Shown here piece by piece: positions 8,818-63,110 of a stretch of DNA of 64,000 nucleotides. How positions within the stretch are numbered: the first letter of the stretch is position 1; each line of letters starts with the position of its first letter. The notes beneath the pieces were generated by a model, which was not told the DNA's origin, did no database searches, and was given only the letters and a program-made list of their open reading frames with translations. A program made the position numbers and the translations under genes. The stretch is taken from the NCBI GenBank assembly GCA_015179125.1, contig WHVA01000044.1, forward strand, positions 124,001-188,000, given 5' to 3'. This stretch comes from Gautieria morchelliformis. Taxonomy: Eukaryota > Basidiomycota > Agaricomycetes > Gomphales > Gomphaceae.

Positions 8818-8915
8818 AATATGTATTTCCATTTGTATTTAATGTATGTAGTTGCATTTCACCAAATAATTCTTTGATTCTATTAACTACCCATGTGCAA
8901 TGTTAACCCTAAATA

Positions 8916-20382: not shown

Positions 20383-21621
20383 CTAATCCTCCCTCATCGT
20401 TTCCCCCTCACCCTCGTTCTCCGCTCCCGGACCTTCTTCCGCATGGCCTATTTCCACGTTGGCCAACTCTGTCTCCACCCTTGTTCCCACCCCATTCTCC
20501 TGCTCCTCCATTTGCAACCCCATTTGGTCCCGGAACAAATCGTTCCGCCACCGGAACTCCCGCTTCAGTTGCTCCAAAACTGTCGACAGTACAGTCATCT
20601 GATTCTGAAACGACAACACCTGATGTCGTTGGACTTCCGCCATTTCCAGCAGAATGTTCCGGATTCCACGTTGTGTTTTCCGGATACCCCTCAACGACTC
20701 GGCGATATCGAGCAAGGGCGACGCCATGGTGAAGCGATTAAGCACCGCTGTTTCCACCTGCCCAGTCACCGGAAAGCCTTCCGCGGCCCTTTTCCCGCTC
20801 GGTCCTGGTTTTGACTTAGGGGTTTCAGGCCCCTCGGTCTCGACCTTTCGCCTTTTCCGCTCCACCCTCGCGGAACATCCGTCCACGACGCATCGCCTCT
20901 TCTTGTCGCGGCACCGTTCACAGGCGGTTTCCCGCGGATTTTCCGACCATATGCATTTGAGCCCCTTCACCTCGCATGTGTCGCAGGGGGCCTTTTCTTC
21001 TTCCCCGTCCCTCGTCTTCCGTTTCTGGGTTGCGGGGTTCTCCGGTCCTAACTCCCGAAGGTGGATGATGCGGGCCATCTTGTTCTTCCTGGCCTGTTGG
21101 AATTCGTCCGCCCTCATTTTCCGATCCGCCACAAGGTTCAGCACAGGAACTACTTCCTGTTGCTTCCCCTTCCCCTCAGGGGATGGCGTGCTTTCCACGG
21201 TGTCTTCCGATTCCGGTTCGGAATCAGATTCGACAATTATTTTCTGCCAAGTTCTTCTGTCAGCACCAGAACTAAGCACATGATGTCTCCGACTCACCCA
21301 GGATTGTCCCGCCTTCTCCGCCGCGGCCTTGTCTTCCGCAGCTTTTTTGGCCGCGTCCCGTTTCCGCTGTTCTTCGCGGACATGCGACTCCTCCTCGCGA
21401 CGTTTACGGTCATGCTCCTCCTTCTCCTTCCGCTCCTGTTCCCGACGCTCCTGTTCCTTGCGCTCTTTCTCCTTGCGCTCCTCCTCCAGACGCTCCCTCT
21501 CTTTCCGTGCGGCTTCCTCGGCCTCGCGCTTTTCAGCCAGTTCCTTCTGCGCAAGCAGGTCAGCAAAATGCTGCTTCATCTCAGCGCTGGTCATTTTGGA
21601 GAAGTCGACTGGAGTGCTCAT
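20383..21621 (-). CDS. Antisense Zn(II)2Cys6 / coiled-coil protein of element C
   Basis: Intact 412-codon frame on the strand opposite to gag-pol, filling the space between pol and the 3' LTR. I chose the ATG at 21621 (MSTPVDFSKMT); the frame is open 24 codons further up without an ATG. Residues about 25-105 are a very long Glu/Lys/Arg heptad region (coiled coil). Residues 213-244 (20890-20985) read C-X2-C-X6-C-X10-C-X2-C-X6-C, the exact Zn2Cys6 (GAL4-type) spacing, followed by a basic RKRRK nuclear-localisation-like patch. The rest is a Gln/Leu-rich probable second coiled coil and an acidic tail. Known Zn2Cys6 proteins are fungal DNA-binding transcription factors; a role in element or LTR regulation is inference. 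Element C's gag and pol are broken while this frame is open. Transcription would start in or near the 3' LTR (21743). Confidence 0.8.
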   Translation of the reverse strand: MSTPVDFSKMTSAEMKQHFADLLAQKELAEKREAEEAARKERERLEEERKEKERKEQERREQERKEKEEHDRKRREEESHVREEQRKRDAAKKAAEDKAAAEKAGQSWVSRRHHVLSSGADRRTWQKIIVESDSEPESEDTVESTPSPEGKGKQQEVVPVLNLVADRKMRADEFQQARKNKMARIIHLRELGPENPATQKRKTRDGEEEKAPCDTCEVKGLKCIWSENPRETACERCRDKKRRCVVDGCSARVERKRRKVETEGPETPKSKPGPSGKRAAEGFPVTGQVETAVLNRFTMASPLLDIAESLRGIRKTQRGIRNILLEMAEVQRHQVLSFQNQMTVLSTVLEQLKREFRWRNDLFRDQMGLQMEEQENGVGTRVETELANVEIGHAEEGPGAENEGEGETMRED

Positions 21622-21742
21622 GGTGTATAAAAAGAAGACGGGTCTTGTTTCCCGCCTATCTTTTGAACTCCGACGTGTTTGTTCACAGGTCACGTGATTC
21701 CGACTTGTGGTCTCGCAGGGCTCGACCTTAGAAGGGAGATAC

Positions 21743-22425
21743 TGTTACGACCGTTCATTTCTGACTTCCGACCCTCAGTTCCGCCACACCTTCCGCCCCT
21801 CCGATATTTCCGCAACACATTCCGCCCCTCCGTTATTTCTGACATTCCGCCCCTTGTACATTTCCCTTGTTCTTTCAACTCTATTACTCGGACCCACCGG
21901 ACCCACCTCACCCTTCATCAAGACCACATATCCGGTCACCCTTGTAGTTTGTTGTCAGATATGTTTTCCCGACCCCTTGTTCTTTGCCATTGTTCTACCT
22001 TACCCTGAACCCCCCTTGTAGGCCTATTGTTCCCAATAGTTAGTTCCCACGCATTGTCTACTTGACTTCCACTTCCCCCGGAATTTGCTTAGTACCATAT
22101 CATTACCTGTTGTCTCAGCTCTTTGTATAAAAGCCTGTCATGTATGTCTCTTATTCTGCAATCAGATAATCACCTTCGATACTTGATTTCCTTCGCTCCA
22201 TCTCCTGTTCTTAGCACAGCGAGTCTAGCAAGATCTCAGTCTCTCCACTTTCTGCCTTCCGCCTCAGTTCCGACTCAAGTTCCGACCAAACCTTTGGTTC
22301 AGTACTTTCCGCCTTCCGACTCAATTCTGAAATACTTAGGATGATAGTTCATTGGGGGCGCAACCTATAAGTTGAAGCCGCTGTCCTTTCCAGTTCCGAC
22401 TTAGCGGAAATCTCGATACGTAACA
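21743..22425 (+). repeat. 3' LTR of element C
   Basis: TGTTACGACCG to GATACGTAACA, 683 bp, same length as the 5' LTR. TATA box at 22126-22133. Differences from the 5' LTR are mostly C/T or G/A transitions. Confidence 0.94.
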
Positions 22426-22462
22426 CAGACTGCTTACACCCTACGTATCCCTTTTCTTCACT

Positions 22463-23687
22463 ATGTCCACGAAAACTCGTTACCGCACCCTTTGGGGTAT
22501 CTCAGAACAATGACATTTCTCGGAAGCCCCCGACGATTCACCACCGTCCCGGGGATACCCCTTGCAGACCCCGCCAAGGCTAGTAACAAAGGCAAAGGTA
22601 GGGCTGACCCCGGTGACCCTTCAGGTGATCTAGGTGATAGCTCTGGAGGTTCTGACAATGACCGGGACCTCCCCAACCTGCCACCCGAGGACAATGAGCT
22701 AATGCGTCAAGTATTCATCAAGCTCACAAAACCTCGTGAGTCCGAAGCACAAGCCAAGGTCAAGGAACCAGATAGTTACGACAGTACTGACCAGGCCAAG
22801 CTTCGCACCTTCTTCCTCCAATGCATACTCAACTTCTCAGACCGCCCCTCAGCCTTCAAAACTGGGGCCTCAAAGGTACAGTATGCTATCTCTTACCTGT
22901 CTGGTTCGGCGCTACAGTACTTTGAACCGGCGATCCTCGGCGAGGTCCAACCCGAGCCAGATTGGCTCGAGGACTGGGACAGCTTCAAGGCCGAGCTTGA
23001 GCTCAACTTCGGCCCATACGACAACGCTGCCCAAGCTGAGATTGACCTCGAGAAGATCGTTATGAAAGAGCATCACAAGGCCATGCGATTCTTTATCGAC
23101 TTCGCCCGAGCTTTGACTCGGACTCAGTGGAACGACTCGGACTCAGTGGAATGACGCGGCCCTCTGACACTTTGCCTACAAGGGCTTGGCGAAACCAATC
23201 AAGGGCGATTTGCTTCACTTGCCTCGATTCCGCAGCCTCGCCGAGCTTAGGAACTTCACGCTGGAATGCGACAGCCGTTACTGGGAGCATCAGGAATATG
23301 ACGCTATGATCAATGGTCGTAGCTCCCAGCCGGCGCACCGCTAATATGTCCAGCAGCAATGCCACTAACAACAATCAGTCTGCCAGCAGGTCCAATAACG
23401 ACAAGAACCGCAACAAGACCAACAACCACAGCAAGGGTTCCAACAACAGCTCTTCGAACAACAAGAGCCAGCCCGACATATCAAGCAAGCTCGGGAAGGA
23501 CAGTAAACTACTTCCCGAGGAACGCCAACGTTGGGTCAACCAGGGCCTTTGCCTGGTTTGCGGCACCAAAGGCCACATCATCAAGGACTGCCTGAAGAAG
23601 AAGTCTACCAATGGTAGCGGTTCTAAAGGTCGGGCAGCGAAGACCCCGAATGAGGGGACTTCGACCTCCATTAGAAAAAATAGGTAG
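22463..23687 (+). pseudogene. gag: gag of element D
   Basis: The first ATG after the leader is 22463 but that frame stops quickly; the long frame is open from about 22492. It has an acidic Gly/Asp/Ser stretch, a capsid block (YAISYLSGSALQYFEPAIL, WLEDWDSFKAELELNFGPYD), and in a later frame an Asn/Ser-rich linker and the CCHC knuckle CLVCGTKGHIIKDC. A 19 bp tandem duplication (about 23116-23153, gactcggactcagtggaa plus one base, twice) shifts the frame and ends it at 23152-23154. A further TGA (context CTC TGA CAC) sits where family members have Arg. It is homologous to the element C gag. Confidence 0.88.
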
Positions 23688-25741
23688 CAACCTCGGAACC
23701 ACACAATCTGAGGATTGTGGTAACCTCACCCGTGTGCTCACACTCAGTGCCGCTTCTCATTCATTGTCCAAGGATTCCCTTAATGTAAACATAACCTCCC
23801 CTTCGCTTCCCGACGTCTCTTTTGTTGCATTAGTTGACTGCGGGTCTTCCGTTTGTTTTATTGAAGACAGATTTGGCCAGAAGTACTCTATGCCTGCTCA
23901 TCCTGTCTCTCCTATACCCTTGAAACTATTTGACGGTAGTACTAACACTACCATTACCCAAGCTCTAGACCTCTGTATCTGCGTTCCGACTGGCAAGCAA
24001 CAATGGGTTACCTTCTATGTAACCTTGCTCGACTCAAGTTGCTCAGTGGTACTTGGCCACAACTGGCTCACCCGCTACAATCCGTCGATTGACTGGGTAT
24101 TGGGCAGTATTACTTTCAAGGCCATCGATTTGACTACGACTCCGGCAACCGCGGCGACTTCAGCCTGCTCAGCTTCGGCTACGACATCGACTTCGGCTAC
24201 GGCATCTTCACCTCCACCTTCGATGACTAATAATGACGTGGCAGCGGGTGTTGAAGGGATGAGTGAGGAATGCAAGTCGGAGTGACTGAAGGGTTAAAAG
24301 TGGCATCACATGATTAGACTAGTCCTTTGTTTGTATGACTGGCTACAGTGCACCATAAGCGCCAAGCGCTTCGAGCACTCTAATTGATTAACTCACTCCT
24401 CACTCCACCTTCGACCTCGCCTCAGAACTCACCTCCGAAGTTGCAAGCACCCCTCGTGTCCCTAATCAATGCACTGGCTTTCATGTGCGCATCCAGATTA
24501 GAAGGGTCCGAAGTGTTTCAGCTCAATCTGGCTTCGCCTGAGCTTGTCTCCCAAGGAGCAACATCAGGAGGAAGCTCTCCCAAGCATTCTGAGAACGTTA
24601 AGAAACATGTTCCTGAAGTATATCACAAATTTGCAGATGTGTTTAGCAAAGCATGTGCTGACACTCTAGCTCCCCACTGACCCCACAATATCAAAATCAA
24701 CCTTGAAGAAGGGACTTCACCACTTATTGGCCCCATCTACTCTCTTTCAGTTTCTGAACTCAAAGCACTTCGGGAGTTCATCGACGAGCACTTGAACATC
24801 GGTGTCATCTGACCTTCACGCTCGCCTCATGGCGCACCAGTATTGTTTGTTCGCAAAAAAGATGGCTCACTTTGGTTGTGTGTCGACTTCCAAGGTTTAA
24901 ACAAGATCTCAAAAAAAGATCAGTATCCATTGCCATTGATTGCTGACTTACTTGATGCACCAAAGAATGCTCGCATCTAGATGAAGACTGACCTTTGTCA
25001 TGCTTACCACCTCGTATGGGTGGCCGAGGGTGACGAATGGAAAACCGCCTTCAGGACTCGCTATGGATCCTTTGAATGGTTGGTTATGCCATTTGGTCTT
25101 ACTAACGGCCCTGCTGCTTTCCAGAGATTCATGAATGAGATCTTCGCCGACCTTCTGGATGTTTGTGTGGTGGTATACTTGGATGACATTCTAATCTATT
25201 CCAGTGACCCCTCCAAACATGTTGAACATGTCAAGGAAGTCTTGCGATGACTTCGACTCAACAACCTCTTCACCAAAGAGGACAAATGCGAGTTTCATCA
25301 CAATTCGGTTGAATTCCTCGGCTACATACTCTCTCCTGAGGGCCTCACTATGGCGGACGACAAGGTAAAGGTCATTCAAGACTGGCCTGAACCTTGCAAA
25401 GTTCGCGACATCCAATCTTTCCTCGGTTTCGCCAATTTCTACTGACATTTCATTCACAACTACTCAGACATCACCATTCCTCTCACCCAACTTACCCACA
25501 AGGGTACCCCTTGGAACTTTTCCGAGGATTGTTGAAAAGCCTTCAACTTGTTGAAAAAGTGATTCACCACTGCTCCTATGCTTACCCACTGGATTCCTTG
25601 AGACTGATGCTTCAGATTATGCCTTAGCGGCAATCTTATCATTATGAACCTCGGAAGGCGAATTCATCCCGTCACCTTTCACTCCCGCACATTCACCTCT
25701 ACCGAGCTCAACTACGATGTTCACGACAAGGAGCTCCTAGC
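23688..25741 (+). pseudogene. pol: pol of element D, 5' part (protease and RT, start of RNase H)
   Basis: Protease: ALVDCGSSVCFIEDRF and GHNWLTRYNPSIDW (frame 23611-24285). [36 protein letters not shown] and catalytic YLDD (about 25175). RNase H reaches YDVHDKELLA, where element A is inserted at 25742. Stops at 24810-24812, 25248-25250, 25443-25445 and others are TGA at positions where relatives have Arg. The coding continues at 31952 after the 5 bp duplication. Confidence 0.9.
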
Positions 25742-26209
25742 TGTAAGGGCAACCCTGGCTAGTCGTGGAGATCACACTACCACACAACTGACAAGGGGAA
25801 ATCCAAAGTATGTATAAATGAACAGAGCATACAAGAGAGGGGGTTCTCACCTGACAAGGGGAAATCCAAAGAGAAAAGTCTAAGGACCCCCAATGTCAGC
25901 GAGCCCGTATTATACTACGCTGCGCAACCAGGGACAACGCTTGGCACCCGCCATCAACCCTGCATCCCCCTGACCCTTGATCGACCCTTGATGCCACCTA
26001 TTATGCGAGTCGCTTGATTTCCGACACTGTTCCGGGGCGGAAGTTGGAAATCGGAGTGGAACTGGCAAGGCGAACGGAACTGGTGGAAGTTCTCCCAGAA
26101 GCGGAATCGTTCCCGAAAGCGGATGCGGAGATGGAATCGGAACCGGAAGCGGAGTCGGAACTGGGTGTGGTGTCGGAACTGGAAATGGAAAACAGGGTGT
26201 CCCCTGACA
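25742..26209 (-). repeat. 3' LTR of element A
   Basis: Minus-strand TGTCAGGGGACACC to GGTTGCCCTTACA. The pol stop codon (26210-26212) abuts the LTR, and the G-rich end of pol (GAGGGGGGTGA) doubles as the polypurine tract. Confidence 0.95.
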
Positions 26210-29200
26210 TCACCCCCCTCTAGCGTGCTGCGTCCTCGAAGCGCGGGACACAAGGGATTGAAATGCCAGCGAGCGGATTCGGCGAGGGGCACCTGGATGT
26301 GTCCTGTAGAACTCCCGGAGTTTGTCAGGAGCGGAAACATCTTGCTCTGGGACCCACGAATTCTCCTCGTACCCATACCCTTCCCATTTCACGAGGAATT
26401 GGAGTCGTCCTCGCACAAACCGGCTGTCCAGGATCCGTTCTACCACGTAGTGCTCTTCCCCATCTACAATTTCTGGCGGAGGTGGCGGATGAGCCTTCCG
26501 ACGTGGAATTGGGTCCTCAAGCATAGGGAGTAACTTCACCACGTTGAAGACGGGGTGGAGGCGGGACATGGACATCGGAAGTCGGAGGCGGTATGCATTC
26601 CGTCCAACCCTCCGCGTCACTGTGAAGGGCCCAAGGTAGCGGTGGGCAAGCTTCTGCGAAGGGCGTGTGGTGCGGATGTCACTTGCATCTAGGTACACCT
26701 TGTCTCCAACTTGGTACTCTGGGGCAGGAACCCGGCGTCGGTTGTAGTACCTTGCCATGTCATCCTTGGCCTTTGCAAGGGCCGACTTGGCTTCCGAAAG
26801 GGTGGAGTCCATGCGGTCTCGGAACTCATTGACCGTCTCGAGTCGGGAGTCAGCCTGGCGTGGTTCGAAGCCCATCCGCGGGTGTCGTCCGGAGTCAAGC
26901 ATGAAGGGAGTCTGTTGCGTGGCGGAATGGACATGGTTGTTGTATTGGAATTCCGCCAGCGGAAGTAACTCATCCCAGTCATCCTGCCTCTCATTGACAA
27001 AGAGGCGGAGATATTGCTCCAACTCCTGATTGACCCGTTCCGTCTGTCCGTCGCCCTGCGGATGGTACGCTGTGGTGGTAGCCAGCTTTATGCCGAGCAG
27101 GCGGTAGAGCTCCCGAGTCAGTTCCGCGACAAACTGCGGACCTCGGTCGGAAACGACTTGCTTCGGGAGCCCATGCAACTTCCAGACATGTGCAAGGAAC
27201 AGGCGGGCCGCTCCGAGGGCTGTGATCGTCGTGTGCGTCGGAATGAAGTGGGACACCTTGCTCACCGAATCCACGACGTTCATGATCGCATCGTAGCCAT
27301 GAGACTCTGGGAGTTCAACGATGAAGTCGACACTGATGGTGTCCCAGCGGGATTCGGGAATCGGGAGCGGAACAAGTTCTCCGACGGGCGGACGTCGTTG
27401 CGCTTTGGTTCGGAGACAAAGGTCACACGTCTTCACATACTGTCCGATGTAGCGGGACATCTGAGGCCACCAGTAATTCCGAGCCACTAACTCCAGCGTC
27501 TTCCACCTGCCAGCATGCCCAGCGACCCGTGTGTCATGGTGCTGGGACACGATGCGACGGCGGAGGTCCACCCCACCCGGAACATAGACCTTGCCTCTGA
27601 AGTGGAGCAGTCCATCACGTTCCGACCATTCCGCTGCCCGTACAGACCGTGAGTGCCCCTTCCGGAGTTCCTCCACTGCCTTCACCACCGACTCCTCCTT
27701 CTCTCCATTCCGGTACTGCCTCCGGATATCCTGGAGCATTTCCGCTTCCGCCCCAACTGCAGTTACTCCTTCTAGGGCACGGATTGCAAAGAGACTTGGG
27801 CGGAGCAGTGTCATATCCGCGTTGTCTCCACTTCCGCTTCCGTGATCCGCGCGGCGGGATAGGGCATTGGGCTTGCCCATGGTGCGGCCGGGGCGGTGGT
27901 GGAGCATGAAGTCAAACCGGGACAGGTGTAGGGACCACCGTGCTTGTCGTCGGTTCAGCTTCTTAGCCATGCGGAAATACTCGAGGTTCTTGTGGTCTGT
28001 CCAGATCTCAAAAGGGCATAGAGCACCCTCGAGGAAGTGTCGCCACTCCTCCAGCGCTCGGATGATTGCCAGCATCTCCTTGTCATGGATCTCATAGTTC
28101 CGCTCGACCGGACTAAGGCTCTTAGAGAAGAAGGCAATCGGATGCCACCCCCCACCATCTTCCGATGACTGCTGTGACAAGACCGCTCCGGTAGCTGCGT
28201 CGGAAGAATCCGCCTCGACTCGATAAGGGCGAGAGTCGTCGGGAAAGATCAGGACCGGGGCGGAAGTGATCAGCTCCTTGAGTTTGTCAAAGGAAGTCTG
28301 TTCCGGCTCTCCCCACCGCCATCCAACCTCCTTCTTGGTGAGGTCGAAGAGGGCACGGGCGTGGCAGGAGAAGTCCTTGATGAACCGCCGGTAGAAATTG
28401 ACAAACCCAATGAAGGACTGGACCTCCTTCTTGTTTCGCGGCGCGGGCCAATCCGATACACCGGAAACTTTGACTGGGTCCATTTCCACCTTTCCTTCCG
28501 ACACAATCACCCCAAGATACTCTATCCGCGTCCGCTCAAATTCGCACTTTTCCGGCTTGAGACACAGGTTGTACTCCCGGAGCCGTTCCAGCACTCTCCG
28601 CACGACTTCCCGATGTTCGGACATTGTTTTCGTGAAAATGAGGATGTCATCGAGGTAGACGCAGACAACCCCTTCTGCTATCATGTCACGGAAAATGTCA
28701 TTCATCATCGTCTGGAATGTGGCGGGACTGTTGGTGAGGCCAAAGAACATGACCTGTGGCTCAAAGAGTCCTCGATTGGTGCGGAATGCGGCCTTCCACT
28801 CGTCTCCCTCCCGGATCCGGACATTGTTGAAGCCCCAGCGGACATCCAGCTTAGTGAAGTACCTTGCCCCGCGGAGTTGTGTGATCAGTTCGGAAATGAG
28901 TGGAATGGGGTACCGGTTCTTGATCGTGATCGCATTCAAGGTCCGGTAGTCCTGCACAAGTCTGAGCGAGCCATCCTTCTTCTTGATGAAGAACACCGGA
29001 GATGCCATGGGTGATTTGGAGGGGTGGATCCTCCCTGTACGGAGGTTTTCCGCAAGGAACGCATCGAGCTCTACCTGCTCCTTGGGTGACAGCGGGTAGA
29101 CCTTGCAGTTGGTGGGCTTTGACCCAGGCTCCAACTCGATGGCGTGGTCCCACAGCTTCCGTGGAGGCAGGGTATCAAACGACTCCTTGGAAAAGACGTC

Positions 29201-29557
29201 CTCGAACTCTCGCAGGTACTCCGGAATTTCCGCCTCTACTCTATCATGCCTCTTGGAGGCTTCAGCAAGGCGTTGCGAAATATTTCCGGTGGCGCGGATG
29301 TGTTCCGCTTCCGGCGGAAGGTTTACGTACAGCAAGCGCTCCCCTTCCGCCAGAATGTCTTCCGGGCCGAGTCGGATGACGTCGGAATCAGAATCGGAAT
29401 CGGAAGTGGGATCCGGTTCAAATTCCGCTTCCGAGTCTTCTTCTGCAAGCAGTGGATGGGGGCCAGAACGACATGTCTGTATGAGCCGTTCAGTCTTCCG
29501 CTGCTCCTGGCGCTCCTTCCGCAGTTCCGACCTGCACACGTGACACTTGGCTGGACA
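26210..29557 (-). CDS. pol: RT-RNase H-integrase-chromodomain polyprotein of element A
   Basis: Open for about 1115 codons from just after the TGA at 29558-29560; it is the in-frame continuation of the protease frame, not a separate gene (position 29539 is only a GTG). Residue numbers from 29539: RT about 180-340 with FFGLTNSPATFQTMMND and YLDD (295-298); RNase H with VEADSSDAATGAVLSQ and IHDKEMLAIIRALEEWRHF (440-510); integrase zinc finger H668, H675, C705, C708; DDE D738, D798 (VVSDRGPQF), E834 (GDGQTERVNQ); GPY/F-like RYLGPFTV (968-975); chromodomain 1030-1080 (EEHYVVERILDSRF, LVKWEGYGYEENSW). All catalytic residues are present. The chromodomain should target integration through histone marks, as known for chromoviruses. 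Confidence 0.95.
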   Translation of the reverse strand, partial: CPAKCHVCRSELRKERQEQRKTERLIQTCRSGPHPLLAEEDSEAEFEPDPTSDSDSDSDVIRLGPEDILAEGERLLYVNLPPEAEHIRATGNISQRLAEASKRHDRVEAEIPEYLREFEDVFSKESFDTLPPRKLWDHAIELEPGSKPTNCKVYPLSPKEQVELDAFLAENLRTGRIHPSKSPMASPVFFIKKKDGSLRLVQDYRTLNAITIKNRYPIPLISELITQLRGARYFTKLDVRWGFNNVRIREGDEWKAAFRTNRGLFEPQVMFFGLTNSPATFQTMMNDIFRDMIAEGVVCVYLDDILIFTKTMSEHREVVRRVLERLREYNLCLKPEKCEFERTRIEYLGVIVSEGKVEMDPVKVSGVSDWPAPRNKKEVQSFIGFVNFYRRFIKDFSCHARALFDLTKKEVGWRWGEPEQTSFDKLKELITSAPVLIFPDDSRPYRVEADSSDAATGAVLSQQSSEDGGGWHPIAFFSKSLSPVERNYEIHDKEMLAIIRALEEWRHFLEGALCPFEIWTDHKNLEYFRMAKKLNRRQARWSLHLSRFDFMLHHRPGRTMGKPNALSRRADHGSGSGDNADMTLLRPSLFAIRALEGVTAVGAEAEMLQDIRRQYRNGEKEESVVKAVEELRKGHSRSVRAAEWSERDGLLHFRGKVYVPGGVDLRRRIVSQHHDTRVAGHAGRWKTLELVARNYWWPQMSRYIGQYVKTCDLCLRTKAQRRPPVGELVPLPIPESRWDTISVDFIVELPESHGYDAIMNVVDSVSKVSHFIPTHTTITALGAARLFLAHVWKLHGLPKQVVSDRGPQFVAELTRELYRLLGIKLATTTAYHPQGDGQTERVNQELEQYLRLFVNERQDDWDELLPLAEFQYNNHVHSATQQTPFMLDSGRHPRMGFEPRQADSRLETVNEFRDRMDSTLSEAKSALAKAKDDMARYYNRRRVPAPEYQVGDKVYLDASDIRTTRPSQKLAHRYLGPFTVTRRVGRNAYRLRLPMSMSRLHPVFNVVKLLPMLEDPIPRRKAHPPPPPEIVDGEEHYVVERILDSRFVRGRLQFLVKWEGYGYEENSWVPEQDVSAPDKLREFYRTHPGAPRRIRSLAFQSLVSRASRTQHARGG

Positions 29558-30145
29558 TCAACTCATCAGTACCTTCCGAGTCTGCCAATTGATCTCCGGG
29601 TTGTGCTCCTGAAGCCAGGTAAACCCGAGGATGATGTCCTGCTTCCCCAGGCTGGTGACTGCAAAGGAAGTGCGTTCTGAGTGTCCATCGTAGCGGAGAA
29701 TCGTGTCTACTATCTCCGTGATGGACCCTGCCTCATTGGGGCTTCCATCCACATTGAACACCGGGATTGCACGTTGCAACTTCCGCGTGGTCAGTCGGTT
29801 CCGTTCCACATAGTCCCGGTCCATAAACTGACCAGTGGCCCCGCAATCGACAAGGGCGGGTCCGGATTTGACTTCCGCCGTATCTGTCGTCTGGATCTCC
29901 ACCTTAATGACTAGTGACTTGGGGCCAGGGGTGGCAGCAACAACATAGCGCTTCGGAAGGCGTCTCTCCCAAGGGCGGATGCGGGATGGATGGGGTGTCA
30001 GATTTGGTTTTTGTGTGACTTTATCCGGTGGGTCTGTACGAAGTGAGGGGAGTGGGGGCTTTTCATTCTCTACTTCGAGACAGGCAAACCGGTTATGTAC
30101 AGGCAGCAGGGGCACACATCTCACCCGCTGCGTGTCACAAAATCC
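29558..30145 (-). CDS. Protease segment of element A (retropepsin-like), reached by -1 frameshift
   Basis: Open in the -1 frame relative to gag, overlapping the gag end. Core motif ALVDCGATGQFMD (DCGAT variant of the aspartic protease site) and the C-terminal block DIILGFTWLQEHNPEINW. It stops at TGA 29558-29560 after KVLMS. The next codons read CPAKCHVCRSE in the same frame and lead straight into pol, so the TGA most simply replaces a codon (CGA Arg fits the context). Copy A3 (42179-42628) retains the same protease region. Confidence 0.85.
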   Translation of the reverse strand, partial: GFCDTQRVRCVPLLPVHNRFACLEVENEKPPLPSLRTDPPDKVTQKPNLTPHPSRIRPWERRLPKRYVVAATPGPKSLVIKVEIQTTDTAEVKSGPALVDCGATGQFMDRDYVERNRLTTRKLQRAIPVFNVDGSPNEAGSITEIVDTILRYDGHSERTSFAVTSLGKQDIILGFTWLQEHNPEINWQTRKVLMS

Positions 30146-31296
30146 GATGCATCTTCCGCTTCCGGTAGACCATGTTCCGCATTTTCGGAAAGCTCTTCCG
30201 CAGTGGGCACTCCGTTTATGTCTGCAAGCGCGAGGAACTCTGGAAGGATCTCGAGTTTCTCCTCTGTGGTCATAAGCCGGATATCAAAGGCTTGGGGGCA
30301 CTCGCGAGCGTAGTGGCCTGGTTGTCGGCAGCGGAAGCAGGTGATAGTTCCGTGGCCTTTTCCGCGCATGCGGTCAACATCCATCGGGGCAGGGCCACTC
30401 TTCGAGGGAGGAGGGCTATGGTTCCTAATAGGAGCAGGCGGAGCAAGCATCGGAAATAATTTCCGTGTGGGAATGAATGCGCTTCCGGGTTTGGGCACAG
30501 GTTGAGTAGGACGAGCGGAACTGCGTGTCGTGTTCCGACTCGTCTCCACGAAGGCCTCATTTGCCTCCCTGTTCCGAGAAACCTTCTGCGCAGCTTGGTA
30601 CCACCCTTCCGGGTCATCAAAATCCGGAGCTCCATCCCCAAGCAGCGCAACTTGGTTCTGGAGCGTCGGATCAAGTCCTCGTCGGAATTTGATGACGATC
30701 GTCTTGTCGTCGTCATATTCCGCAAGGTCGATGAGCTCCTGGAAGCGATCGATGTAGTCATCGACCGGATCTTTGGCCTGGTACCAGCTCGTCCCCTCGA
30801 GCTTCGTAAGGGCTGTGAGCTGCTCATTTTTCGGGCAGAACTGGTCGGAAAATGTTTTCTTGAAGGCGTCCCAGTCCCGGAAGTAGTTCCCCTTGCCCTT
30901 TGCTTCATGTCGGATCACCTTGTTTGCAAAACGGGCTGCGCGGTCCGATTTGAAAAAGGACAACGTCCAGTGAATCCGAGCCTGGTCGTTCGGAAAGAGG
31001 TCTCCGACAATTGCGAAGTAGATGCTGCATGTGTTGAAGAATGCGCGTCCCTTCTCCCGATCTCCGTCAAAGTCCGCCGGAGTTGCGGGTTTGACCTTTG
31101 CTAACTTCGCGGACATCCTCTTTTCCACTAGTTCCGCTTTTCCGAAATCCGGATCATCCAGCATTTCATTTCCACCACCTTGTGGAATATCTAACTTAGC
31201 CAAAATCGCTTGTAAGGCTGTTTCAATCGCGTCGGTCTTCATCCGGTTCCGCGTCAATTCCTCCTCCATATTCCGAAGACGATCGTCCGGATCCAT
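30121..31296 (-). CDS. gag: gag of element A (capsid and CCHC nucleocapsid)
   Basis: Intact. First ATG in frame is 31296 (MDPDDRLRNMEEEL), giving 391 codons; the frame is open to 31494 but without ATG. A capsid region (KGRAFFNTCSIYFAIVG, FRDWDAFKKTFSDQF, FQELIDLAEY) is followed by a linker and the zinc knuckle CFRCRQPGHYARECP. The C-terminal ASDFVTRSG overlaps the protease frame. Gag packages the RNA and forms the particle. Confidence 0.93.
   Translation of the reverse strand: MDPDDRLRNMEEELTRNRMKTDAIETALQAILAKLDIPQGGGNEMLDDPDFGKAELVEKRMSAKLAKVKPATPADFDGDREKGRAFFNTCSIYFAIVGDLFPNDQARIHWTLSFFKSDRAARFANKVIRHEAKGKGNYFRDWDAFKKTFSDQFCPKNEQLTALTKLEGTSWYQAKDPVDDYIDRFQELIDLAEYDDDKTIVIKFRRGLDPTLQNQVALLGDGAPDFDDPEGWYQAAQKVSRNREANEAFVETSRNTTRSSARPTQPVPKPGSAFIPTRKLFPMLAPPAPIRNHSPPPSKSGPAPMDVDRMRGKGHGTITCFRCRQPGHYARECPQAFDIRLMTTEEKLEILPEFLALADINGVPTAEELSENAEHGLPEAEDASDFVTRSG
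30139..30145 (-). promoter_or_regulatory. Putative -1 frameshift site G GAT TTT at gag/pro junction of A
   Basis: Minus-strand GGATTTT in gag register G-GAT-TTT, six codons before the gag stop. The -1 frame is open through here into protease. GGATTTA works in a known retroviral pro-pol shift (MMTV), so the heptamer is credible. It is kept in copy A3 (42643-42649). Confidence 0.6.
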
Positions 31297-31483
31297 GTTG
31301 GAAGGAGAAATATGGGACGGGATTTCCGGGGTTGGGAGCTCGACGTAAGAAGAGGGGCTGTCGTACGCTGTATGTGCGGAAGAGGTTGCGATCTCCGAGT
31401 CGCTGTCTCCGATTCCGAACGCACCTATGGCGAATGCAACGCACAGTACGACCGCCGGTCCTCTAGGGGAGAGACTTTTCTGC

Positions 31484-31951
31484 TGTAAGGGCAACCCTGG
31501 CTAGTCGTGGAGATCACACTACCACACAACTGACAAGTGGAAATCCAAAGTATGTATAAATGAACAGAGCATACAAGAGAGGGGGTTCTCACCTGACAAG
31601 GGGAAATCCAAAGAGAAAAGTCTAAGGACCCCCAATGTCAGCGAGCCCGTATTATACTACGCTGCGCAACCAGGGACAACGCTTGGCACCCGCCATCAAC
31701 CCTGCATCCCCCTGACCCTTGATCGACCCTTGATGCCACCTATTATGCGAGTCGCTTGATTTCCGACACTGTTCCGGGGCGGAAGTCGGAAATCGGAGTG
31801 GAACTGGCAAGGCGAACGGAACTGGTGGAAGTTCTCCCAGAAGCGGAATCGTTCCCGAAAGCGGATGCGGAGATGGAATCGGAACCGGAAGCGGAGTCGG
31901 AACTGGGTGTGGTGTCGGAACTGGAAATGGAAAACAGGGTGTCCCCTGACA
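31484..31951 (-). repeat. 5' LTR of element A
   Basis: 468 bp; two differences from 25742-26209. Adjacent TSD ctagc at 31952-31956. Confidence 0.95.
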
Positions 31952-34487: not shown

Positions 34488-36934
34488 CACTCCACTAGAC
34501 CCCCATGTCCCCCATAGCTCGCCAAATCCCTCGCCGCCTGCATCCACTTCAGATAGTTCCGCCACCTCCTTATCCTCATGAATTCCATGTCCGCCCTGGT
34601 CATTGTTTTGGAACCCGTTGAACTAAACGTAAAACTGTGGTGTTAAACACAATTCTAAACTTCAATCAGAGATTTGACTTTACAAGCACACGCAAGCTTC
34701 GAAACTATTTTAATGGAGAACCCAATTAAGAAATTATACTCCGGTGAACAATCAGAATCAGTATTGGTACAGGAAGTGTAGCAATAGAGATTTAACTGAA
34801 CACGTGTAGTTCTCAGATTGTGCAATACTTTGTGAGGTCAAAGAATGTTATTAGGCGTCCAAGGGTCCAGATACTTCAAGGGGGAAAGCTACCTAGAGTC
34901 TTAGGACCACGGGTTGAGTGAATTAAAGACAACAATAATCCCCAAGACGTGAAAAGATAGTTCTGCGCTTGAACTCTTCCTCAGTTCAAGTATGTCACTA
35001 TTCTTGTGGCTTTTCTGGTTTTCCAACTCAACAAACGTAGGATATTAACTCACTTACCCTGAGTTAGGTTAATATCTGCGTTGATTGATCAAGAAAGATC
35101 AATTACTCAAAAGGCTATTAACCCACTTAACTCAGAGTTAAGCTAATAATCTATTGCGTGAATTGAATAACTAATAACCAAGTCTATTAGATCACTGCTC
35201 AGAGTGGCATCTAATGGTACAGGATTACTAATCAGTTACTCTTAGTAATGTTGCTGTTCGCAGCGCGATTATTCAGAGCCTGCTGCAATTAAAATAGAGC
35301 ACTCTTGTACTACTCAGAGCCAATCAGAGTTGCTGCAATCTTAGACTGTAGCCAAGTCAGTGAGCCAGTACTTCGGTACAAGGCTGTGTTGAAGTCACAC
35401 TTCAGTTACTCAAGGTATGAGTGGTTTGGGTGAAAGATGATTGATTGCTTCACTGCTAAAACTGCAGGCTATTTATACTGCATCTATCTAGCTTATGTAA
35501 CTAGTGCTAGGAACCTTGTAGAGGCTTCTACTACTGTGAAGAACCTTGTGGAAGCTTAGAGAAGCTCCAGGAAAGGTTTGGAAACTATTGGAAGGCTGTG
35601 GAAGGTTCTATTGCTATATTGGGTTAAAGTCACAGTTCTGTGACAGTAAAGCTAAGAGTATGTAAGAAAATCCCACGCTCATGTGATTATCATGTGATGA
35701 AGGAAAGTCATGTGACTGCAGATAATCAGGTGACTTTGAGGTCAGGTGATTGTCAGGTGACTGTGGATGATCAGGTGACTTTGAGCTGTTTTGAGGTCAT
35801 GTGATAGTCATGTGACCGTGGGGAATTCTTAGCTAAACTATCAAGAGATTGTTGTACCTTGTGGACCCAATGTGAGTGTAGCATAGAAATATTAATACAA
35901 CCTTTCTTGAGGACATTTGAAACTAATTAACTACCTAGTAAATGTTCATAAATAGGTAGCTACTTTGTGGATGATCCCTAACAGTCATCCTATCATTCGC
36001 CGCCCTAAACTCCCCCAACAACTCACAAACCCTCTCCCCAACCTCGCCAACCTTCTGTCCCACATCCCTCACCACCGCTATCAACTCCCTCATCTCGGCA
36101 CTTCGCTCCGACCTTTTGGTTTTCTTGTCCTTCTTCGCCCTCCGACCTTCCTCGACCTCAGTTTCCTTTCCCTCACTCTGCCTCCTCACCTCCTCAACCT
36201 CGCTCCCCTCAGCCTCCTTTCCCTTCTCCTCACTCAACCTCGCTGCCATCCGCTCCACTCTTGCCTCCAAGTTTCGCTTGACCCAATCGCTTGAGTCATC
36301 GTTGTTTTCAACATCGTCCCGAACCTTGGTCCCTTTCTTCAGCCTCGGTCCATCCTCGCTGTCCTCGCTCCTGGCCCGCTTCCTGCCCGCCTCACTCGCC
36401 TGGCCTTTCCCTGGGTTCGCCTTGCTGCGATGACCATGGGCTATACTACAGCCCAAAGATCGTGTCCTGAACCATACACAGGCACCCTGGTCGGCGAGGC
36501 CGAAGTCGAGGCTAATGGCCCGAAGGCACGTATAGTCGCGCTCTTCGCAGCGCGTGCACCTTGCCTCGGCCTTGGTCGCGAGTTGCCACTCATGAGGTCC
36601 TCCATCGGCAAGCTTGTACCTGTATAGGGACAAGTTGGTGGGCTGGTACAAGAACAGCATGCGTTTATACTACACAAGTCAGCAGCGTCCATGACGAGAC
36701 TACGACGGTACTCACCTTCTTGCCTTTTGGCCCTTCCTGCCACGGCTCCCGCATATCTATGGCCCCCGCATCCTCAATGGGCCATGGGACCATCTCGGGT
36801 TGAACCTCGGGCATAACCTCTCCCGAGGGACCATCCTCCTCAGATAGCAGGGTCTGGTCGAACGGGTTACTCACACTAGTTTCGTCGATAGCAGAGTTGA
36901 ATAGTGGTTGAGGGTGCACCACATTCGTTGGCAC
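34488..36934 (-). pseudogene. Antisense Zn2Cys6-like gene of element D, spliced and interrupted by solo LTR E2
   Basis: Lies between pol and 3' LTR of D on the opposite strand. Exon 1 (36934 to 36716) encodes an acidic leader (FDQTLLSEEDGPSGEV, AGAIDMREPWQEGPKGKK). A GT-AG intron of 46 bp (36670-36715, GTGAGT...TGTGTAG) follows. Exon 2 starts YKRMLFLYQPT and has C-X2-C-X6-C-X15-C-X2-F-X6-C at 36448-36558: five of the six zinc-cluster Cys, the fifth changed to Phe. Then come a basic/acidic linker, SSDWVKRNLEARVERM and a Glu/Lys coiled coil. E2 (34604-35983) splits the C-terminus; beyond it the frame continues (RRWRNYLKWMQAARDLA) to a TGA near 34488. The start codon is unclear (GTG where B2 has ATG). 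Copy B2 is at 40108. Confidence 0.78.
34604..35983 (+). mobile_element. Solo LTR E2
   Basis: TGTTTTGGAACCCG to GATCCCTAACA, 1380 bp, TSD gtcat (34599-34603 and 35984-35988). Shares its start and many internal blocks with E3 (38965-39371) and, more distantly, E1. The segment 35695-35830 has short tandem gtcatgtgac / gtcaggtgac motifs. Confidence 0.9.
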
Positions 36935-37080
36935 TTGGGTTTGCTGCCTCCTACCCAGCCTTTTATCTAACCTCAGCTACGATTTAAGCTTCGCCTTTCC
37001 GGCTACTTAACATCGGGCCAGGATCTAGATTCAAGGATAGGTGAACCTTGTTCATATTACGGCGTCAAGGGTCTTGGCCA

Positions 37081-37095
37081 TAAGGGGGGGGATAC
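37081..37095 (+). promoter_or_regulatory. Polypurine tract of element D
   Basis: taaggggggggatac immediately before the 3' LTR; the homologous tract in copy B2 (39935 onward, minus strand) is kept. It primes plus-strand DNA synthesis. Confidence 0.75.
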
Positions 37096-37642
37096 TGTAA
37101 GGACCCGGCCTTTGGCTGGTTACTTACCGGTATAACCTTTCTTCTCAGCCGAGCCTTGTGATACTCATGCCCGAGTACTGGTGATTCTAATCCTGCGCCT
37201 GAGCCCGAGCCCGAGCTAGAGCTCATATCCGACCTTGACCTCATCCCTGAATCCCCTTAGTTACTGATTCCGCTCCACCACGCATCATTCGTATATTACC
37301 TCACCCTGACCTCGCCCTGACCTTCCCCCACATTTGCTTGCCCCTGACTTGTACCCTCGCTCGTATATAAACCCCCTTGTATGCATTCCTACTCCTCAGT
37401 CTGAAAATCAACTAGCGTATACTTTGATCCCTAGTAAGTGTCTAAGCCTCACCTCTTAAGCCAAACCTTGCCTCTTATTCGTTTGCCTACGAAGTTGGGA
37501 CTCGTGCGTAGGGTCGGCGCAGCACATGAGCTGAAGCCTAGTCCCTCTCCGACTCTATCAGAACCTTGCCCCGTAACCTCGGACCATACCCTGGGTTTTG
37601 CCCCCGAACTCGGTCAACCTTACGAAGGATCGTATCGTAACA
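37096..37642 (+). repeat. 3' LTR of element D
   Basis: TGTAAGGACCCGG to TATCGTAACA, 547 bp, TATATAAA at 37364-37371, followed by TSD cttgc. Confidence 0.93.
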
Positions 37643-37647
37643 CTTGC

Positions 37648-38040
37648 CTTGATTATAGATTGAGTGTGACCACCACATGCCATGTCTATTCCTCCTGGTA
37701 CTAGCTGAGTCAGAGAATGTCTGGGCCAGTGGCACCATGCAATTGTCCAGGCCATTCATTCCCTGTGCATAGTGCTAACTGCCCTGAAATTGTGTATCTC
37801 GATAACTCACAATCACAGAGGCAACAGTTCAAGCAGGACAGCACCCTCAGCAAACACATGGGGTGTTGTCCAGAACACATTGAGGCTAATAAACACACAC
37901 ACAGGTGACAGAGGCTCAAAAGCACAAGTGTGTCCACCAGAGTCGGCCTGAGCACACTGCTGCTACTGAGGGTGCTGTCCCCAGCCCTTCCTGCCTTACA
38001 AAGCAAATTGGCGCAGGGGTGCCACTGTGGCCCATGCTAC
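37648..38040. other. Unassigned DNA right of element D
   Basis: No gene motif. Together with the sequence left of 10877 this is the pre-insertion site of D. Confidence 0.5.
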
Positions 38041-38529
38041 TGTTGGGTGCATACAAGCTCCTGCACCAAAATCAAGCATAATATATACGATTTATTGTAT
38101 GGTGTTTCAATCTCTTCTCACATTGTTCTTGTACCATGCATCCATTTCTCTGGTTATTTTCGAAATTTTCCAGTCACTCCCTACCTCTCCATTTCATTTC
38201 GTTATCTCTATTTTCACAAGCGGCTGCACCCAGCGGAGTTTGAAATGACTTCCGACGCGCGAGCTCTTGGGCGCTAAAGGGCCGGGTGCACGTATATGCT
38301 TTCTGAGACAGGATAGTGCTCCTCTCTCAGTGACAATAAAGTCACTGAGACAGGTGAGTAGTATTCTTTATAATTTCATAGCATGTTGACTGAAAATCAT
38401 GTAGTGAATTTGATTCTAGGTATTGTATTAATATAACAGTGACAATAAATTCACTGAGAGAGTGGATTTGATTCTAGCTTTCTAAGAGCGCTACCGAACC
38501 TTCCCTGCCATAACCCCATGTTGCTAACA
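38041..38529 (+). mobile_element. Solo LTR R3
   Basis: TGTTGGGTGC to GTTGCTAACA, 489 bp, inverted relative to R1, TSD gctac (38036-38040 and 38530-38534). Confidence 0.9.
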
Positions 38530-38616
38530 GCTACCACATGAGGATGAGATGGCACAAGCACATTTAGGGGGACCATGGCATGGTGCTGCTGGCATGATTG
38601 ACCATGACTTGGATGC

Positions 38617-38891
38617 TGTCAAGATTCTATTTTAGGTGTTAATATTGTGTATGAGTGAACACAGCGAATGCCTGAGTAGCCCTCTTACCTTCTAAACATT
38701 CACTGGCTTCATCCTATTCGCCGAATTACACCCTTCATTGCACAAGCTGTTTGGTGTAGCGTACAAGGTCTCATGGAAAGGTTGTCTAGTAGTAACAATC
38801 CTTTTGCTGGCAAAGGTGCTCCTTTGGAGCCCTTCGCCGACAGCACCGACAATGGTATGAAGGCTAAGGTAGTGAAGGTGAATGTATGTCC
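38617..38891 (+). mobile_element. Truncated LTR of family X (X3)
   Basis: Starts TGTCAAGATTCTATTTTAGG and follows solo LTR X1 (58972 onward) including GTGAACACAGCGAATGCCTGA, but ends after about 275 bp where a retrotransposon integrase fragment begins. Confidence 0.75.
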
Positions 38892-38964
38892 CTGATCACA
38901 ATGATATTCGCTTGGACATTCTTCGCTTGCTGCATGATCATCAGTTAGCAGGACACCCAGGATA
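38892..38964 (+). pseudogene. Short integrase zinc-finger fragment
   Basis: Reads DHNDIRLDILRLLHDHQLAGHPG, the His-containing half of a Ty3/gypsy integrase zinc finger. It is cut by LTR E3 at 38965. The parent family is unknown. Confidence 0.6.
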
Positions 38965-39371
38965 TGTTTTGGAACCCGTTGAACTAAACGTAAAACAGTG
39001 GTGTTAAACACAATTCTAAAGTTCAATCAGAGATTTGACTTTACAAGCACACACAAGCTTCGAAACTATTTTGATGGAGAACCCAATTAAGAGATTATAC
39101 TCCGGTGAACAATCAGAATCAGTATTTGTACAGGAAGTGTAGCAATAGAGATTTAACTGAACACATGGAGTTCTCAGATTGTGCAATACTTTGTGAGGTC
39201 AAAGAATTTTATTAGGCATCCAAGGGTCCAGATACTTTAAGGGGGAAAGCTACTTAGAGTCTTAGGACCATGGGTCGAGTGAATTAAAGACAACAATAAT
39301 CCCGAAGATGTGAAAAGATAGTTCTGTCCTTGAACTCTTCCTCAGTTCAAGTATATCACTATTCTCATGGC
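38965..39371 (+). mobile_element. Truncated LTR of family E (E3)
   Basis: About 407 bp very close to the start of E2 (TGTTTTGGAACCCGTTGAACT…), cut by the B2 LTR at 39372. Confidence 0.85.
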
Positions 39372-39934
39372 TGTTACGGTATGATCCGTCGTAAGGTTGA
39401 CCGAGGTCGGGGACGAAACCCGAGGCAAGGTCCGAGGTTACGGGGCGAGGTTTGCATGGGGAAGTCGGAGAGGGACTTGGCTTCAGCTTATGTGCTGCGC
39501 CAACCCTACGCACGAGTCCCAACTTCGGAGGCAAACGAATAAGAGGCGAGGTTTGGCTTAAGAGGCGAGGCTTAGAAACTAGCTAAGGATTGAAGGGATA
39601 CGATAGTTGATTTTCAGACTGAGGAGTAGGAATGCATACAAGGGGGGTTATATACGGGCGAGGGTGCGAGTCAGGGACGAACATATTAGTGGAGGTCAGG
39701 GCGAGGTCAGGAGGCCGAGGTCAGGGCGAGGTAATATACGAATGATGCGTGATGGAGCAGAATGAGTAACTAAGGGGATACAGGCATGGGATCAAGGTGG
39801 GATATGAGCTCAAGCTCGGGCTCGGGCTCGGGCGCAGGATAAGGATCATATGTACTCGGGCACGAATATCACAAGGCTCGGGCTCGGAAGAAGGTTCTAC
39901 CGGTAAGTAACTGGCCAAAGGCCGGGTTCTTACA
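39372..39934 (-). repeat. 3' LTR of a second B/D-family element (copy B2)
   Basis: Reverse complement of the element D LTR type: tgttacggtatgatcc to gggttcttaca, 563 bp. A C-rich tract at 39935-39950 is the polypurine tract in reverse. The internal part extends to the right. Confidence 0.87.
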
Positions 39935-40107
39935 GTATCCCCTCCTTATGGCTGAGACCCTCGAGGCCGTAATATGAACAAGGTTCACCTATCCTCGAAT
40001 CTAGATCCCGGCCCGATGTTAAGTAGCCGGAAAGGCGAAGCTTAAATCGTAGCGGAGGTTAGATAAAAGGGTGGGCAGGAGGCAGCAAACCCAAGTGCCA
40101 ACGAAAT

Positions 40108-40763
40108 ATGGTGCGCCCTCAAGCCCTCTTCGACTCAGCCGTCGACGAGAACAGTGCGAACAACGCGTTTGACCAGACACTACTGTCTGAGGAGAACGGA
40201 GCCTCGGGCGAGGTTATGCCCGAGGATCGACCCGAAGTTGGCGCATTGCCAATTGATGAGGCGGGGGCCATCGACATGCGGCAGCCGTGGCAAGAAGGGC
40301 CGAATGGCAAAAAGGTGAGTCGTTTGGTAGCCTCATATTTTGCTGTTCGCTGACTTGAGTAGTACAAGCGAATGCTCTTCGCTTACCACCCGACAGACTT
40401 GACCCTATACGGGTACAAGCTCTCTGACGGGGGTCCTCGAGCGTGGCAGCTCGGGGTGAAGCCCGAGGCGAGGTGCGTGCGCTGCGAAGAGCGTGATTAC
40501 ACGTGCCTTCACCAGGTGAGCCTCAACTTCGGCGTCGCCGACCAGGGGGCCTGCGTATGGTGCAGGACGCGGTCTTTAGGCTGTAGTATAGCCTTAGGTT
40601 GTTGCAGCAAGGCGACCCCTGGGAAATGTCAGGCGAGCGCAGTGGGGAGAAGCGCGCGAGGAGCAAGGATAGCGAGGACGGGCCGAGGCCGAGGAAGGAG
40701 GCCAAGGCTCGGGACGAGGTTGAGGAGGACGACGACTCAAGTGACTGGGTCAAGCGGAACTTG
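40108..40763 (+). pseudogene. Antisense Zn2Cys6 gene of copy B2 (truncated)
   Basis: Antisense to the B2 element. Exon 1 from ATG 40108 (MVRPQALFDSAVDEN) to 40314. The GT-AG intron 40315-40362 (GTGAGT…TTGAGTAG, 48 bp) sits at the same codon as in element D, after NGKK. Exon 2 starts YKRMLFAYHPTDL. The zinc cluster is complete here: C-X2-C-X6-C-X15-C-X2-C-X6-C at 40474-40584. The linker has a one-base frame change near 40640 relative to D, and the gene is cut after WVKRNL at about 40763, where element F sequence begins on the opposite strand. Intron conservation between two copies supports a real spliced gene. Confidence 0.78.
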
Positions 40764-41595
40764 CCTTTCCTATGCGCTTCCCATCCAGGAAGCTGCACCG
40801 GACCTTTCGGTCCATGCATTGTTGGCATGCAGTTTTCCTCCCGCATAATCACCGGGTTTGATGACGTCTGCATGCCTCGCAAGGTTCATGCTAAAAATAA
40901 ATAAATAAAAATCAGTCACAAACCAAACTGACCCGACCTGAGGACTCACCTCTTGCTCAGACTCCTCCTCGTCTGACTCCTCGGTCAAGTTCTGCTTCCA
41001 TGACCCCAAAGCTTTCGGCTTTACCTTAGCTGCATTTTGTTCAGCCACATGCTTCATGGCCAGTATCCGCACCTGTGCGGTTGCCGAATCCACTACGATC
41101 AGCTTGGGTGATGGGATATGGTAGTTCTGATCCACGTCGGCTTGTCGAATCGATTCAGCTTTAAGCATATCCAAAAGTCGTTTGCACTCACGTTTGAACA
41201 CCTGTCCCATGACTTCTGAGCCTGGTCGGCTTTCGCCTTCAAGGCCCGCTTCTCCACCTCTCACGCTTCCTTGGCTTTCGGTGCCTCCTCGGCTTGCCAC
41301 GCTTCTTCCGCTATCCACGCAGCTTCAGCCTGCGCCTTCCGTTCTGCTTTGGCTTTTTCGGCATCTTCCCGCCGCTTCTTCTCTGCAGCCTCTTTGCACT
41401 CCTGCGCAAGTCATCGCTTTTCCTGCAGCTCCTTCATCCACTCTACATTCACACTCAGCTTGCGCGAGCTCTGCATCGACCTCATCAACCTCATCGACCT
41501 CGCCGATGGGCTTTTCACATGCATCTGGCATGATCCGTGACTCTAATGATGGTGGGAGAAGACAAGAAGCAGAACACGAAACAAAGCTTATGTAA
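40764..41595 (-). pseudogene. Antisense coiled-coil / Zn2Cys6 gene of element F
   Basis: Third family with the same design. Minus strand, just inside the LTR at 41664: an acidic start (MPDACEKPIGEVDEVDEVD, 41531), a Glu/Lys/Ala coiled coil (AEKAKAERKAQAEAAWIAEE) with a frame change and stops, a KSW block, and an acidic stretch EESDEEESEQE. Then a GT-AG intron (40891-40949, 59 bp) and the cluster C-X2-C-X6-[TGA]-X7-C-X2-C-X6-C (40795-40881). The stop at 40849-40851 sits where the third Cys (TGC) is expected. The gene is joined to copy B2 at 40764. Confidence 0.7.
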
Positions 41596-63107: not shown

Positions 63108-63110
63108 TAG

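Follow-up and report, generated by a model that had tools for sequence, protein, structure and literature searches.

Antisense genes for zinc-cluster-type proteins and family-specific DNA words in gypsy retrotransposons of Gautieria morchelliformis

A 64,000-nucleotide stretch of the genome of Gautieria morchelliformis (assembly GCA_015179125.1, contig WHVA01000044.1, positions 124,001 to 188,000 of the forward strand; hereafter the window, numbered from its first base) was analysed for long terminal repeat (LTR) retrotransposons with an additional gene on the strand opposite to gag and pol. It is apparent that two families, designated C and D, carry such a gene between pol and the 3′ LTR, that the gene encodes six cysteines in the spacing of the fungal GAL4-type Zn(II)2Cys6 cluster, that its reading frame is conserved among copies, and that each family is rich in a short CG-containing word of its own. 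A third family, F, is decayed. An earlier reading of the window, made from sequence alone and referred to here as the original prediction, had proposed that these elements encode their own DNA-binding regulator. That interpretation is supported in part: the tests suggested with it came out mostly in its favour, and its claim of novelty for the arrangement requires correction. A self-encoded DNA-binding regulator appears likely, and the family words, which are the new element here, add support; the antisense layout was already known.

Element C (11440–22425, forward strand) is a complete Ty3/gypsy retrotransposon with TG..CA LTR ends, a 5-bp target site duplication (TSD), CAGAC, on both sides, and LTRs that are 96.9% identical. 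On the forward strand it comprises a 5′ LTR (11440–12122), gag (15718–16554; Retrotrans_gag and zinc knuckle), pol (17290–20117; reverse transcriptase, RNase H, integrase and a Tf2-1-like SH3, in two overlapping frames) and a 3′ LTR (21743–22425). The antisense accessory gene was found where it had been predicted, at 20383–21621 of the reverse strand, between the end of pol and the 3′ LTR. It is a single open frame of 412 codons, with its ATG at 21621, 121 bp from the LTR. Its product would consist, in order, of a charged N-terminal part, an acidic linker, the Zn2Cys6-like cluster, a basic stretch and a C-terminal part. The cluster, CX2CX6C-X10-CX2CX6C (CDTCEVKGLKC-X10-CERCRDKKRRC), occupies 20890–20985 of the reverse strand. 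A 2.97-kb TG..CA insertion with the duplication GCGGC is situated in the 5′ region of C (12453–15424); it has enriched words of its own (GCGAA and CGAAT) and a 222-bp tandem duplication, and may represent an LTR, or a non-autonomous element, from a different family. The 5′ part of a second C-family element, approximately 91–93% identical to C in pieces, lies at 60543–64000, where it exits the window.

Copies of each family were sought in the whole genome (122 Mb, 1113 contigs). There were at least 103 matches for C (1073 candidates, 101 scored), at least 155 for D (598 candidates, 150 scored) and at least 150 for F (279 candidates, 150 scored). The best 30 of the 103 C matches and the best 30 of the 155 D matches, sets that are biased towards well-kept copies, were analysed with flanks of 1.5 kb on each side, contig permitting; F was analysed from four loci. 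In 29 of the 30 C loci, all except L015, the LTR of C is adjacent to the antisense ATG. Beyond the 3′ end of the antisense gene, pol was detected on the opposite strand in 28 of the 30 C loci (L017 and L032 being the exceptions), in 29 of 30 D loci (not L039, the window's own D copy) and in three of the four F loci (not L071). A conserved antisense open reading frame (ORF) between pol and the 3′ LTR, the arrangement termed aORF-3R, is therefore a feature of most copies among the best 30 of both C and D.

The cysteines are preserved in these copies. Five of the six are present in all 30 C loci and the sixth in 28, while all six are present in the 30 D loci, save that Cys5 is replaced by Phe in the window copy alone. 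Because copies elsewhere in the genome keep the cysteines, the cluster is not due to chance. The spacing is that of the GAL4-type cluster (PF00172), with spacers of X7 in F, X10 in C and X15 in D, which span exactly the predicted range. When the two halves of the window C cluster were scanned separately, the first matched positions 15–37 of the Zn_clus profile (17.8 bits) and the second positions 1–13 (11.4 bits), an order that is the reverse of that in GAL4; in D (locus L053) the second half alone matches, at 17–34, its normal place. In profile comparisons the C and F clusters align with an E value of 6e-5 and a probability of 64%, the F profile consisting of four decayed rows. The alignments of D with C (E 0.007, 5%) and, with the same four-row F profile, of D with F (E 0.006, 6%) are weaker. 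These alignments are consistent with, but no proof of, a common origin of the three clusters. The identification of the antisense proteins as Zn_clus members, which must be regarded as provisional, is drawn from the cysteine spacing together with sub-threshold Pfam matches.

Purifying selection clearly acts on the antisense frame. The ratio of non-synonymous to synonymous divergence (dN/dS) was calculated pairwise by the NG86 method, as the ratio of medians over pairs with dS > 0.03. Values below 1 had been predicted, and among the 30 C loci the antisense frame gave 0.20 for the whole gene (429 of 435 pairs) and 0.07 for the zinc region (426 of 435 pairs). The corresponding values in D were 0.22 for exon 1 (27 of 30 loci; L039, L044 and L049 were excluded for short exons) and, for all 30 loci, 0.21 for exon 2 and 0.15 for the zinc region. 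Copy pairs overlap and are not independent; disjoint pairs, run alongside, gave 0.24 for C (15 pairs, highest value 0.28) and 0.25 for D (14 pairs). The mirror frame, aligned with the antisense frame at third codon positions, gave 0.36–0.39 over whole genes or exons and 0.18–0.49 in sub-regions, and the remaining four frames gave 1.10–2.17 and 0.81–3.56, respectively. More divergent pairs give lower ratios (C, 0.41 down to 0.18; D, 0.40–0.45 down to 0.23), as would be expected if selection acts in the active element and drift follows insertion. The antisense frame is free of stop codons in 18 of 30 C copies and, over the first 280 codons of exon 2, in 22 of 30 D copies; summed across 30 copies there are 19 stops in this frame in C, versus 88–394 in the other frames, and 10 in D, versus 119–482.

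The D gene lies on the reverse strand and consists of an acidic exon 1 of about 69 codons (36716–36922), an intron (36670–36715; GTGAGT..GCTGA..AG) and exon 2 (35935–36669), which contains the cluster (36448–36558); the 3′ LTR of D is at 37096–37642 of the forward strand. The window copy is decayed. It has a Val in place of the start Met of other copies, and the predicted Cys to Phe change (at Cys5) is present, as is the antisense gene itself, although the span originally given to it, 34488–36934, was too wide. A second member of the D family, B2, is inverted in the window, and its gene was recovered on the forward strand over the interval that had been predicted (40108–40763): exon 1 (40108–40314), a 48-nt intron (40315–40362) and exon 2 (40363–40763), truncated at the junction with F, with a cluster at 40474–40584 that keeps all six cysteines. 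On the reverse strand of F, exon 1 (40938–41531) is frameshifted and encodes a charged part and an acidic stretch, and a 47-nt intron (40891–40937; GT..TGACTGAT..AG) lies directly upstream of the cluster (40795–40881), in which the third cysteine is a stop, in agreement with the predicted loss of one cysteine to a stop codon.

The D intron is 46–48 nt long in the 30 loci, with GTGAGT at the 5′ site in 29 (GCGAGT in the other) and AG at the 3′ site in all; GCTGA, read by eye, precedes the 3′ site in 30 of 30. Its length shifts by one or two bases, and the spliced phase is constant in the copies examined. An intron present only in the antisense direction outlives reverse transcription of the sense RNA, and would thus be expected to mark a retroelement gene that is read in antisense. 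On these signals, the D and F antisense genes are predicted to be spliced, and the conservation of the signals in D lends a putative antisense transcript indirect support.

Word enrichment was assessed by comparing observed 5-mers with their dinucleotide expectation and, in coding DNA, with 1000 synonymous-codon shuffles for each sequence; five Copia loci, eight host Zn_clus loci and one Helitron served as controls. CGGAA/TTCCG is the top 5-mer of C, with 1819 occurrences in the 30 loci against 361 expected. It ranks first in every single C locus (median 5.0-fold) and is enriched 8.6-fold in the LTR, 4.1-fold in the antisense gene and 5.8-fold in pol. Its density is 15.3 per kb in gag-pol, 16.9 in the antisense gene and 20.5 in the 3′ LTR, which contains 14 such words, versus 0.3 per kb in the 2.97-kb insertion. 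The two LTRs of C have six and eight words within their first 110 bp, the eight being those of the 5′ LTR, and the commonest direct spacing is 12 bp. The word of D is CGAGG/CCTCG (1325 observed, 317 expected in the 30 loci). It ranks first in 26 of 30 loci (median 4.1-fold; AAAAA leads in two of the others, CCTCA and CCGAG in one each), and is enriched in the LTR part, the exon 1 region, exon 2 and pol.

Neither word is the top word in any Copia locus (CGGAA 0.27–0.65-fold, CCTCG 0.58–1.04-fold) or host Zn_clus locus (0.58–1.53-fold and 0.87–1.54-fold), and in the Helitron there were two CGGAA against three expected and seven CGAGG against three. A genome-wide bias was excluded as the source of the words by these controls. 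Compared with synonymous shuffles, CGGAA occurs 22 versus 6.9 and 20 versus 6.0 times in the two C pol frames, 21 versus 10.1 times in the antisense gene and 12 versus 5.4 times in gag, the weakest case (z 3.5). For CGAGG and CCGAG, the D integrase pieces, which have one or two stops each, gave z values of 2.1–5.2; in D exon 2 the signal varies between copies (z for CGAGG 2.7, 5.4 and 1.9 in three of them). An origin of the words in codon usage or amino acid sequence was ruled out by the shuffles. The observed-to-expected CpG ratio in C, excluding the insertion, is 0.79–1.24, i.e. there is no depletion. By eye, and uncounted, many single-copy changes in C copies such as L012 and L014 resemble CpG decay, with Arg replaced by Trp, Gln, His or Cys; this would be expected if the CpGs of the genome are methylated.

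Element E (25742–31951, reverse strand; TSD CTAGC), a separate gypsy element that encodes a chromodomain, has no antisense gene; its pol frame extends to the LTR, so that there is no space for one. Its LTRs are 99.6% identical, and a 296-amino-acid piece of its pol has 132 scored matches in the genome, with 99–100% identity listed; loci L078 and L079 are E copies. E forms a gypsy family of high copy number that is very recent in origin. CGGAA is in excess over synonymous shuffles in its pol (54 versus 15.1) and gag (27 versus 8.9), nine words lie within 191 bp of the sense start in its LTR, and the commonest direct spacing is 6 bp. C and E are 44% identical, and their word sites coincide at only four of 22 and three of 18 positions; because so few coincide, most E and C words arose separately. 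Elsewhere in the window, Helitron remnants (Helitron_like_N, PIF1 helicase and Pif1_2B) were observed at 5423–8818, and a match to the APH phosphotransferase family, weak and below threshold, at 53019–53564.

The classic target of Zn2Cys6 proteins is a CGG-type triplet, a preference that fits the words loosely. We lean, though only slightly, towards the interpretation that the antisense protein is a self-encoded, sequence-specific regulator of the LTRs, or an anti-silencing factor, that reads the word of its own family. Under this interpretation the antisense transcript would most likely begin in or near the 3′ LTR and be spliced in D and F, and a nuclear-type zinc-cluster protein would be made from it. 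The protein would recognise CGGAA in C, CGAGG in D and, less clearly, CGGGTT or CCGAG-like words in F. The words crowd the start of the C LTR, beside the antisense gene, and spread along the C and D elements. Having coated its own element, it might activate the LTRs or ward off host silencing, in the manner of the VANC proteins discussed below, and the geneless family E may hitchhike on the protein of C.

Several results weigh against this interpretation. The gathering cut-off for Zn_clus in Pfam, 21 bits, was not reached, the best scores being the 17.8 bits of the C half-cluster and 16.5–16.6 bits for whole C proteins, and no Zn_clus match was found in the Pfam scan of the open-frame copies L017, L021 and L061; the profile search suggested with the original prediction thus gave matches that fell short of the cut-off. 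Among the matches listed from the protein database there was no homologue except one N-terminal fragment, and a sequence search of the PDB with the antisense protein gave no match. The F words (CCGAG and CGGGTT-like, four loci) are less clear, CCGAG being top in two of four. Conservation of CGGAA among C copies exceeds that of other CG words only moderately (0.73 versus 0.62 in the LTR, 0.65 versus 0.43 in the gene, 0.68 versus 0.58 in pol), and words of the same composition in the LTR and pol are conserved about as well. Between the C and D integrases (72–77% identity) at most one of 17–18 aligned C words is kept, but few other CG words at sites encoding the same amino acid survive either (9 of 52 to 16 of 69), so the scarcity of C words in D proves little alone. 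Finally, E carries the word of C without the antisense gene; word and gene are not strictly coupled. Apart from these results, P0001, a G. morchelliformis gene model, has the N-terminal sequence of the C antisense protein at its start, followed by other sequence, which we take to resemble a t-SNARE; it may be either a fusion or an annotation artefact.

Other explanations must be considered. Sense ORFs of 209 and 189 amino acids overlap the C gene in the window, and the mirror frame has a low ratio of its own over whole genes and exons, as might be anticipated were the antisense ORF a by-product of sense-strand coding or composition. The mirror frame, however, has its third codon positions in common with the antisense frame, which itself has the fewest stops and the lowest ratio, and the intron signals are read on the antisense strand. 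A chance ORF or sense-strand by-product was ruled out by dN/dS and the stop counts per frame, and is regarded as extremely improbable; in keeping with the original prediction, no sense-strand feature explains the open antisense frame, the sense frames having more stops and higher apparent dN/dS. A compositional or mutational process unrelated to the zinc-cluster proteins, which would then do something else, is a more serious contender, albeit a rather unlikely one. It would account for the geneless E, and for the similar conservation of same-composition words; every word contains CpG, a methylation target, and the controls were Copia, host and Helitron loci rather than gypsy families devoid of both gene and word. 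It sits poorly with two different words in C and D within one genome, of which the Copia, Helitron and host loci show no such excess, with undepleted CpG in C outside the insertion, with the excess over synonymous shuffles and with the scant coincidence of C and E sites. The strand bias of the words, which favours sense-strand TTCCG in the C loci (1430 versus 389) and is seen in the D loci too, could instead point to a signal in the sense RNA, for packaging or Gag binding, with the antisense protein or transcript acting on RNA. E leans mildly in the opposite direction (in one LTR and the internal region together, TTCCG occurs 38 times on the sense strand and 57 times on the opposite one), and a role of this type seems quite improbable.

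The protein might also act on the LTRs alone, as a negative regulator that damps sense transcription or controls copy number, in which case the words in coding DNA would not be sites. The layout is close to that of hbz in human T-cell leukaemia virus type 1 (HTLV-1), an antisense gene driven from the 3′ LTR with a spliced form, whose product is described as reducing 5′ LTR expression, and the CGGAA arrays at the start of the C LTR, within its first 110 bp, would suit such a regulator. An LTR-only repressor needs no coding sites, however, and CGGAA is nearly as dense in gag-pol and the antisense gene as in the 3′ LTR; we consider this explanation unlikely. There is, lastly, a stronger form of the self-recognition idea, to which we give tentative credence, short of thinking it probable: a spliced antisense zinc-cluster protein would read a family-private CG word, written over the whole element, coding sequence included, by selection for synonymous changes, and would thereby mark the element against silencing, while the geneless, high-copy E would have evolved the same word and would freeload on the protein of C.

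The means by which retrotransposons evade silencing by the host have long been a question, and to our knowledge element-encoded, word-reading anti-silencing proteins come from one group of plant DNA transposons. In gypsy families of the single fungus studied here, a conserved protein of DNA-binding type goes together with a private word scattered along the element, which suggests that they encode proteins able to recognise and regulate their own DNA, or to shield it from silencing. The pairing makes a protein–word code directly testable, and in E hitchhiking can be examined as a natural experiment. The synonymous signal suggests, in addition, that a mobile element can hold in its coding DNA a second message, one common to the whole family.

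The original prediction stated that no description of such an arrangement was known. This does not hold, since antisense genes are described in several elements. The literature drawn on in part for the comparisons that follow comprises PMC3248453, PMC7264820, PMC5735166, PMC10186651, PMC8365987, PMC11963269 and PMC10398659. In the titles and abstract openings surveyed, neither antisense Zn2Cys6 genes nor dispersed family words were found for fungal LTR elements. The plant elements Grande (gene23), RIRE2 and Retand have antisense genes between pol and the 3′ LTR, a layout like that of C and D; those of Retand, termed TRP28, are predicted to encode DNA-binding proteins, and PvRetro13 is grouped alongside. 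Retand differs in its protein domain and in belonging to a non-chromovirus plant lineage, and in the portions of its description used here no dispersed target word is reported; its main text mentions neither 'intron' nor 'zinc'. The Boty-like elements of Botrytis cinerea, as represented by a title and citing passages, are fungal LTR elements that likewise have an extra antisense gene, brtn, for which those passages name no zinc cluster. HBZ of HTLV-1 is a nuclear factor acting on LTR transcription; the layout is alike, but HBZ is a bZIP protein of a retrovirus, and the parts consulted describe no family-specific word array. With GAL4-type Zn(II)2Cys6 proteins (PF00172) the antisense proteins share the CX2CX6C-Xn-CX2CX6C pattern and basic residues near the cluster, and differ from them in falling below the Pfam cut-off and, in the window copy of C, in the swapped profile order of the halves. 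A parallel to the words is offered by the VANDAL/VANC anti-silencing systems of Arabidopsis, in which the element-encoded VANC proteins are described as recognising short family-specific words that differ between related families. Family-specific word enrichment of this kind was found for both C and D, with E having the word of C. VANDAL elements are DNA transposons with proteins of the VANC family and, in the accounts consulted, words in noncoding tandem repeats, whereas C and D are LTR elements with gypsy pol domains, zinc clusters and words in coding DNA too. AT9TSD1, which is unrelated to VANDAL, is reported to have the VANC6 word and to be hypomethylated as well, and may offer a parallel to E.

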